Positions 6,672 through 33,501 of a DNA stretch of 46,139 nucleotides are shown piece after piece. Below the pieces are notes generated by a model. That model saw only the letters and a list, made by a program, of their open reading frames with translations. It had not been told where the DNA came from and searched no databases. A program made the position numbers and the translations under genes. The DNA is from Gammaproteobacteria bacterium (lineage in GTDB: Bacteria > Pseudomonadota > Gammaproteobacteria > Pseudomonadales > Azotimanducaceae), in NCBI GenBank assembly GCA_027295305.1, contig JAPULC010000202.1, positions 1 through 46,139 of the forward strand, in the 5' to 3' direction. Position 1 is the stretch's first letter, and the number at the start of each line of letters is the position of its first letter.

Positions 6672-6893
6672 CTAGTTCATGTCCAGAAATTCGCCGTCCG
6701 GGCGAATTTCTTACCACGCTGCGGCGAAGTAAATTGGCCTTCATCTTGGTGGTCCACCACCGCGCTCCCAAAACCCTTGATTTTGCTGGGCGCTCTTCCG
6801 CAAAAGGCTCCGCAAAGAGCGGGTTTTGCTTAGGCAGCCGCACGGCTGCCCCGGCTTCCATGCCCCGGAGCTAGTTTCCGCCCGGGAAACTAG
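6672..6893 (+). repeat. Dispersed MITE-like structured element, copy 1
   Basis: CTAGTTCATGTCCAGAAATTCGCCGTCCGGGCGAATTTC...GGCAGCCGCACGGCTGCC...CTAGTTTCCGCCCGGGAAACTAG; aligns end to end with 33267-33497. Confidence 0.9.
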
Positions 6894-20328: not shown

Positions 20329-20367
20329 GCCGCCAGGGACGGCAATTTCCGTACAAGAACTAGCTAA
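20329..20367 (-). repeat. Degenerate end-fragment of the MITE-like element (copy 3 relic)
   Basis: Minus strand TTAGCTAGTTCTTGTACGGAAATTGCCGTCCCTGGCGGC compared with CTAGCTAGTTCCTGTCCCGAAACTCGCCGTCCTGGCGAG; 18/22 identity over the terminal inverted repeat. Confidence 0.6.
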
Positions 20368-21587
20368 TCGATGGAGCGAAGGGCGCGCACCGGAGAGAGC
20401 GCAAGCCACAGACAAGGAATCGTAAAGCCCGCCACGGCAACGCTCAGCGCCGGCACCATGCCCACGAACTGGCCGAGCAATCCTCCCGTCAACATGCCCA
20501 GGATGCCGATACCGCCGACCACGAATTCGAAGCTCGCATTCATCCGTCCGAGCAGATGGTCCGGCGTCAACGCTTGTCGTACGCTCATCTGCGAGATCAG
20601 GAAGATGGCAAACGCGATGTCGCCTACGAGCTGATTTGTAAACAGCAGCACTAACGCTTCTGTCTCGTCGACGAGCGCCGCCAAGGGCACCAGCGTCGCC
20701 AACGGAATCCCGAAAATCAGTGCTCCCACCATGACACGCCCGATTCCGAAGCGCCTCGTCAGTGGGTTGACGATGGCCGCGCCCACGAGCGCGCCGACTC
20801 CGCCTGCGCCGATGAGCAGACCCAGCATGATGGGGCCCAGCCCGATCACCTTCAGCACATAGAGGGCATAGAGCGTTGCAAAGAAGCCGCCGAAAAAGAA
20901 TTGCGCCGACAACGCAACGGCAAGCGCGCGCAACTCACGCGTACCCCACACGAAGCGCACGCCGTAGGCGATCTCGGCAATGACGCCGCCGTTGCGGTCC
21001 GTTGCACGCGTGGGCTCCTGCAACCGGATTGTGAATAGCGAAAGTGCCGATAACAGAAACGTGAGCGCATCGACGAGCAGCGCAAACGTCGCAGAGACCA
21101 TCTGCACTAACGCACCGCCGATTCCGGGGGATGCCACCTCGGCCACCGAGGCGCTCGCAGAGAGCTTGCTGTTGGACTGCAAGAGTTCTTCCGACACAAC
21201 CAGGGTAGGCAGATATGAGCGGTATGCGATGTCGAACAGCACCGTCAGCGCGCCGACCAGAAACACGATCGCGTAGAGGCCGGACATGGCAAGCGCCCCT
21301 GAGATAAGCAGAACAACAGCGAGCATCAGGAGCACGAAGCGCCCGAGATCCGCACCAATGAGCAATGGTTTGCGGGGTAAGCGGTCGACCCAAACCCCCG
21401 CGTACAGCCCGATCAGCACTGCGGGTAGAGCACGTGCGGTCTCGAGCAGACCCATCTGGGCGGGGGATGCGTCGAGCACCAATATCGCCACGAGCGGAAT
21501 CGCGCCCATCCAGTTGCCGAACTCGGATACGCTCTGGGCAAACCAGAGGCGCGAGAAGTTGCTGGGTTTGAGTCGAAGCGAACTCAT
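20364..21587 (-). CDS. MFS transporter
   Basis: Multiple TM segments; FSRLWFAQSVSEFGNWMGAIPLVAILV and YAGVWVDRLPRKPLLIGADLGRFVLL. Confidence 0.92.
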   Translation of the reverse strand: MSSLRLKPSNFSRLWFAQSVSEFGNWMGAIPLVAILVLDASPAQMGLLETARALPAVLIGLYAGVWVDRLPRKPLLIGADLGRFVLLMLAVVLLISGALAMSGLYAIVFLVGALTVLFDIAYRSYLPTLVVSEELLQSNSKLSASASVAEVASPGIGGALVQMVSATFALLVDALTFLLSALSLFTIRLQEPTRATDRNGGVIAEIAYGVRFVWGTRELRALAVALSAQFFFGGFFATLYALYVLKVIGLGPIMLGLLIGAGGVGALVGAAIVNPLTRRFGIGRVMVGALIFGIPLATLVPLAALVDETEALVLLFTNQLVGDIAFAIFLISQMSVRQALTPDHLLGRMNASFEFVVGGIGILGMLTGGLLGQFVGMVPALSVAVAGFTIPCLWLALSPVRALRSID

Positions 21588-33094: not shown

Positions 33095-33230
33095 TGTTTT
33101 CTCCTCGGCAGGTGAGCACCGTCTCATGGAGCCCGGCTAGTCGAGACCAATTTCTCAGCGAATTCGCGGCTAAAACGCGAACGGAGAGCAAGTAGCGAAC
33201 GAGCAGAAAACGCAAAGAAGACAAGAAAAG

Positions 33231-33255
33231 GGACAGGCAAACCTGTCCTTTTTTT
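33231..33255 (+). terminator. Rho-independent terminator
   Basis: GGACAGG-CAAA-CCTGTCC-TTTTTTT. Confidence 0.85.
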
Positions 33256-33262
33256 GTTGGCG

Positions 33263-33501
33263 CTAGCTAGTTCCTGTCCCGAAACTCGCCGTCCTGGCGA
33301 GTTTCTGTTGACGCTGCGGCGAAATGAATTCGCCTTCATCTTGGTGGTCTCCCACCACGCTCCCCGGCCCTTGCTTTCTGCTGCGCGCTCTTCCGCAAGA
33401 GGCTCCGCAAAAGCGGTCCTGCTTACGCCAGCCGCAAGGCTGGCGCGACATCCTTGTCCCGGACGCTAGTTCTTGTCCCTTTCGGGACAGGAACTAGCTA
33501 G
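33263..33501 (+). repeat. Dispersed MITE-like structured element, copy 2
   Basis: Perfect 22-bp terminal inverted repeats CTAGCTAGTTCCTGTCCCGAAA (33263-33284) / TTTCGGGACAGGAACTAGCTAG (33480-33501); interior aligns with copy 1. Confidence 0.92.

Follow-up and report, generated by a model that had tools for sequence, protein, structure and literature searches.

The two related stretches in the window (the whole 46,139-nt stretch of DNA analysed) are probably copies of a non-autonomous, hairpin-rich MITE with ISNCY_1-like ends, which is mobilised in trans, occupies stop-codon sites, is selected for its hairpins in source elements and drifts after insertion. Copy 1 (6672–6893, + strand) belongs to subfamily C of this structured MITE, and copy 2 (33263–33501, + strand) is a full-length member of subfamily A with the terminal inverted repeats CTAGCTAGTTCCTGTCCCGAAA and TTTCGGGACAGGAACTAGCTAG. 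A third, truncated copy (20331–20363, − strand), consisting of the left end and the beginning of hairpin H1, abuts the TAG stop of an MFS-transporter gene (20364–21587, − strand). The sequences and coordinates given for the two long stretches by the first-pass annotation were correct on re-reading. Its end-to-end alignment holds at 82% identity across 6672–6876 and 33267–33471 (E 6e-50; local alignment score 220, at most 31 in 100 shuffles), but not for the last ~20 nt, where copy 1 carries the terminal hairpin CTAGTTTCC-GCCCG-GGAAACTAG (6871–6893, + strand) and copy 2 carries CTAGTTCTTGTCCC-TTTC-GGGACAGGAACTAG. Adjoining copy 2, positions 33230–33258 contain a hairpin, GGACAGG-CAAA-CCTGTCC, with T7 behind it on the + strand and a T-rich stretch on the − strand too; the stem of this hairpin repeats the GGACAGG found in the end of copy 2.

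We searched the 4.12-Mb assembly (523 contigs) with both copies. At least 40 places were scored among 153 candidates with copy 2 as query, and at least 40 (41 matches in one count) among 207 candidates with copy 1. For a protein of the window that served to place the genome, the relatives, at 41–51% identity, belong to Gammaproteobacteria. The element is a dispersed repeat of ~240 bp with at least 50 copies in this gammaproteobacterial MAG, and 56 distinct segments were aligned. They fall into subfamilies A (n = 11, including copy 2), B (n = 30) and C (n = 13, including copy 1), an assignment that omits two divergent segments. The repeat itself interrupts the assembly, as many of its copies are located at the ends of contigs. 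The element has the properties of a MITE: it is multicopy, short and without coding capacity, and it has terminal inverted repeats, 22–25 bp long in intact copies. Searches of plasmid and phage collections gave 0 matches. In the genome alignment, H3 or H5 was lost whole and precisely in several copies from different subfamilies, as expected from palindrome deletion during replication.

In related genomes, ISNCY_1-type insertion sequences (NF033593, DDE_Tnp_1) are bounded by the same terminal repeat, YTAGTTCCTGTCC, the end sequence in common being 13–20 bp. Complete ISNCY_1-type elements with both ends were found in G083 (1715 bp) and twice in G082, one of the latter with variant CTAGTGCC ends; single matching ends lie beside ISNCY_1 genes or fragments in G114, G016 and G005. 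The search of the present assembly gave no intact ISNCY_1 gene, only a 144-aa fragment without ends. In G016, an IS1380-type ORF (PF13701; L103, 1502–1903) starts ~140 nt behind a CTAGTTCTTGTCC end, which directly follows a TAG stop. The mobiliser therefore may not be, or not only, an ISNCY_1 transposase; no IS1380 gene (PF13701) was found in the element's own genome. From the shared ends we infer an ISNCY_1-type enzyme as the candidate for moving this subfamily.

For four insertions of a related 126–139-bp element, a cousin of the present one, relatives have the empty site and its flanks join ungapped, most clearly in G103 (GGCTAG/CTAGCG, compared with the occupied site in G085). We also examined the flanks of 36 elements, a set curated by hand. 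A direct-repeat phase is common to their left and right flanks (P ~0.002 for 4-bp windows, uncorrected for the windows tried), although the palindromic target blurs the duplication length. When target-site duplication models were compared (inner CTAG, outer CTAG), excess matches appeared only for left −7 to −1 against right +1 to +7. The flank consensus is CTAG, the outermost left position is G in 1 of 36, and a GTAG (or CGTC) tetranucleotide beside the palindrome was not present in these flanks. A preference for CTAG and other YTAR sites is known from IS5 (PMC5493358).

Gene 3' ends account for 56 of the 81 flanks that have a neighbouring gene, the gene pairs around copies are convergent in 12 cases and divergent in one, and none of the copies is located within an ORF. 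When only genes of 150 aa or longer whose codon composition is good are considered, ~16 ends have the stop codon finishing exactly 4 nt ahead of the G of CTAG/TTCC (mostly TAG, also TAA and TGA), and in ~6 further ends it finishes at that G itself. Profile matches reach the C-terminus in a SerA-type PGDH (427 of 428 aa), a polyphosphate kinase, a YegD-like chaperone and UbiG, so that these stops are native or within a few codons of the native ones. The element lands preferentially on gene stop codons and leaves the gene unharmed. This trait has a precedent in GTAG REPs, which supply stop codons to neighbouring genes (PMC3733652).

Between its ends the element is an array of hairpins. H1 reads GAAATTCGCC-GTCCG-GGCGAATTTC in copy 1 (6686–6710, + strand) and GAAACTCGCC-GTCCT-GGCGAGTTTC in copy 2 (33281–33305, + strand). 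H5, the third hairpin of the first-pass annotation, reads GGCAGCC-GCAC-GGCTGCC in copy 1 (6833–6850, + strand) and CGCCAGCC-GCAA-GGCTGGCG in copy 2 (33426–33445, + strand). The two paired changes reported from this comparison, T-A to C-G in H1 and G-C to C-G in H5, are exactly as described, and both follow the subfamilies: the H1 pair is T-A in B and C and C-G in A, and the H5 pair is G-C in C and C-G in A and B. That stems stay complementary is true of H1 and H5 but not of H2, which was overlooked: copy 2 has GGCGAA-ATGAA-TTCGCC (33318–33334, + strand), whereas in copy 1 (6723–6739, + strand) a private, uncompensated change to TTGGCC breaks one pair, and the other aligned copies have TTCGCC at the altered base. 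H3 (GGTGG-TCTC-CCACC in copy 2, 33343–33356, + strand) is invariant across 32 of 32 aligned copies, and two copies have a longer, perfect H3 stem. A variable middle part separates H3 from H5 in copy 2, and the array continues with H6 (GACA-TCCT-TGTC, 33447–33458, + strand) and H7, the right terminal hairpin, which bears the right terminal repeat (33465–33498, + strand). Folding is much stronger than in dinucleotide shuffles: whole copy 2 has z = −8.4 as RNA and −7.9 as DNA, its interior, stripped of the terminal repeats, has −4.8 (+ strand) and −3.6 (− strand), and copy 1 has −3.9.

Because every compensatory change took place at the level of a subfamily, selection and descent are inseparable with two copies alone, and the argument from them was weak; with many copies the signal is real. 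In 32 aligned copies, 96.8% of stem cells pair. Stem cells changed on both sides number 24, compared with 5.0 in shuffles, and none of 500 shuffles reached 24. The covariation score was 0.062 compared with 0.030 when shuffled, and slid controls were all lower (at most 0.035). The subfamilies differ from one another in the stem pairs 19/35, 163/178 and 183/192, and C varies internally at 161/180; both sides are changed each time. The double-change cells reflect few events, namely H1 T-A/C-G, H5 C-G/G-C (two pairs) and H6 A-T/G-C, and the compensatory events that can be seen as independent within this genome number only about four. A few small groups of two or three copies have stem changes in common that are not compensated, most of them at the ends of helices.

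Inherited and private changes behave differently. Variants common to at least two copies occur 13 times in 66 stem columns and 71 times in the 117 other columns (P = 5e-4), and without subfamily C the counts are 3 and 34 (P = 4e-4). Once near-duplicates are excluded, the 9 shared stem variants are the lowest count at any of the 183 rotations of the stem mask (mean 28), whereas singletons are not depleted in stems in the same test. Singleton variants per cell amount to 0.0109 in stems and 0.0091 outside (P = 0.43). Uncompensated stem changes at the chance rate had been named beforehand as the observation that would count against maintenance, and individual copies show exactly this, since 26 private single stem changes break the pair and 5 keep it. 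Since inherited but not private variants are depleted in stems, the simplest reading is that selection had the spreading, transposition-competent source element as its unit, and that copies, once inserted, are unconstrained and decay neutrally. The original proposal of a selected RNA or single-stranded DNA structure, as opposed to passive divergence, thus stands for elements while they spread and not for inserted copies, which drift.

The same ends are present in 12 of the 37 sampled genera of the family. Some of these cousin elements differ in their interiors, among them a class found in several genomes that measures exactly 126 bp, and a clade in G069/G016, G171/G166 and G122 has the same hairpin architecture as the window element. 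The H1 variants are GAAACTCGCC with loop GTCCT, GAAATTCGCC with ATCCG, AAATTCGC with TCCT, GGAAATTGGCA with TCCC and GAAATTGCC with TTCCT, the partner strand being perfect each time; the H6 variants are GACA with TCCT, GGCA with TCCA, TGGGCA with TCCA, GGGCA with TCCC and GGTGCA with TCCC. The predicted stems of H1 and H6 are exchanged across genera while the TCC loop is kept. In the element's own genome, the six TCC positions of these loops have 1 shared variant, compared with 17 at the 16 other loop positions. The 126-bp cousins were located in four genomes of two genera (L224, 949–1074; L225, 914–1165; L228, 913–1038; L229, 152–277; L230, 989–1114) and have a third, internal motif of the CTAGTTCC type; the L225 segment consists of two in direct tandem with the junction in common. 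Solitary CTAG hairpins of ~46 bp, equivalent to the two ends only, occur at L203, L206, L217 and L220. The flank AAATTGACCTC is identical at L203 and L206 and occurs in inverted form around the L203 hairpin; a repeat or an assembly effect may be responsible.

Other explanations account for parts of these data. A REPIN or REP-type element, moved by a Y1 (RAYT/IS200-like) transposase with single-stranded hairpins as its substrate, is quite unlikely here, even though REPs and REPINs have been described with short palindromic motifs in inverted pairs, with solitary hairpins and compensatory changes, and with TAG at the ends of genes (PMC3116915, PMC3733652). The end motif was absent at 30 of 30 Y1/RAYT loci in 12 related genomes, where one one-mismatch match lay at a locus edge, 1.3 kb away. 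The only Y1/IS200-like transposase gene found in the own genome (L066, G000:C114) is broken by an in-frame TAG and is not flanked by element ends, and a RAYT/Y1 partner was rejected on these grounds. The GTAG tag is absent from the present element, and it is complete DDE insertion sequences that are bounded by the same ends.

The paired changes might also have arisen without selection. Palindrome correction is an established mutational mechanism, and template switching in quasi-palindromes (inverted-repeat gene conversion) would perfect stems mechanically; the precise loss of whole hairpins shows them acting at the DNA level, and the lengthened H3 stem in two copies remains perfectly paired. 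We consider this unlikely, because mechanical correction should also affect old insertions, in which double changes make up only 2 of 33 changed stem cells, both at one subfamily C pair, and because template switching predicts neither the depletion of inherited stem variants nor the conserved loop bases. More improbable still is that the element encodes a structured RNA useful to the host at each site, as a 3'-UTR stabiliser, terminator or riboregulator. Its location at gene 3' ends, its strong folding and its GGA-loop hairpins on the − strand would suit such a role. However, private variants strike stems as often as elsewhere and mostly break pairs, so that individual copies are not visibly maintained and selection is not on a per-site host structure. 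There is no T-tract behind the element hairpins, and Rfam gave no match for the element at the gathering threshold and nothing with copy 1 in a permissive search.

The TCC loops of H1 and H6 on the + strand are GGA on the − strand and resemble CsrA sites. On that strand H6 reads GACAAGGATGTC or GACAGGGATGTC, which match the core of the CsrA SELEX consensus RUACARGGAUGU (PMC7652899), and the GACAAGGATGTC of copy 2 contains ACAAGGATGT, this core; an exact ACARGGATGT occurs in copy 2 alone within the window. In nine elements of the structured clade, GGA lies in predicted hairpin loops 15 times on the − strand, compared with ~4 in shuffles, and once on the + strand, an excess that is not significant individually for most elements. 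Of 40 right-hand genes, 32 lie on the − strand, and read-through from such a gene would yield GGA-loop RNA. In a permissive search, the Rfam RsmZ model (PrrB_RsmZ) scored copy 2 at 28.8 bits (threshold 44); this score needs the flanking terminator hairpin, and the match was not repeated in other copies or cousins. A CsrB/PrrB_RsmZ-type sRNA was rejected, the covariance-model score being below the gathering threshold and confined to copy 2. That the array represents a set of CsrA/RsmA-binding hairpins carried by a transposon, as the identity of the H6 − strand with the SELEX core ACARGGAUGU might suggest, is possible but doubtful; judged by sequence, the resemblance is a lead, not a result. If true, the MITE family would be tied to, or would titrate, the host's global carbon-storage regulator; its dozens of dispersed copies could form a distributed CsrA sponge, and mobile DNA would scatter regulator-binding sites behind genes.

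Among known systems, the closest are REPINs, GTAG REPs, BOX and other bacterial MITEs, and the present elements are a new, well-delimited family of hairpin-array MITEs, not a new class. Like REPINs, which are REP doublets mobilised by RAYT (PMC3116915), they are non-autonomous, short and intergenic, with inverted ends and hairpins, and for REPINs too compensatory changes have been reported and selection argued at the level of the element. Unlike REPINs, they are longer (126–240 bp), have several separate hairpins and ends that match a DDE IS, and carry the motif without an adjoining RAYT. GTAG-tagged REPs (PMC3733652) likewise often give flanking ORFs a TAG stop through their termini, but are single palindromes of 20–40 bp with a GTAG tag and a tyrosine transposase, whereas the present element has CTAG-type ends and a hairpin array. 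BOX, RUP, SPRITE and QMITE, which are IS-derived MITEs (PMC10969869, PMC3049150), share IS terminal inverted repeats, stable hairpins and gene-flanking sites; judged by their descriptions, the fixed TCC loops in H1 and H6 set the present array apart. IS5 (PMC5493358) is similar in its preference for CTAG-like YTAR tetranucleotides and its DDE transposase, but the candidate transposase here is of the ISNCY_1 type. CsrB/RsmZ-type sRNAs (Rfam clan CL00106) have several hairpins with a GGA loop, as does the − strand of the element, which differs in its sub-threshold score in one copy only and its fewer GGA hairpins.

For the MITE with trans-mobilised, ISNCY_1-like ends, we propose that an autonomous relative would have provided the transposase in trans and that insertion would occur at TAG/CTAG-rich palindromic sites. 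The main surviving class would sit exactly at gene stop codons, and it may survive there because a TAG stop is retained or provided at the junction, so that the protein is left intact. In the few source elements from which each subfamily was founded, purifying and compensatory selection would have acted on the hairpin array, and each copy would drift once inserted. The folded strand presumably matters for propagation, either as single-stranded DNA during replication or transposition or as read-through RNA. Selection on a spreading element and decay of its inserted copies, which are usually confused in repeat families, are told apart here by the direct contrast between private and inherited stem variants, and a hairpin-array MITE family of one gammaproteobacterial family is connected both with a type of DDE transposase and with stop-codon insertion.
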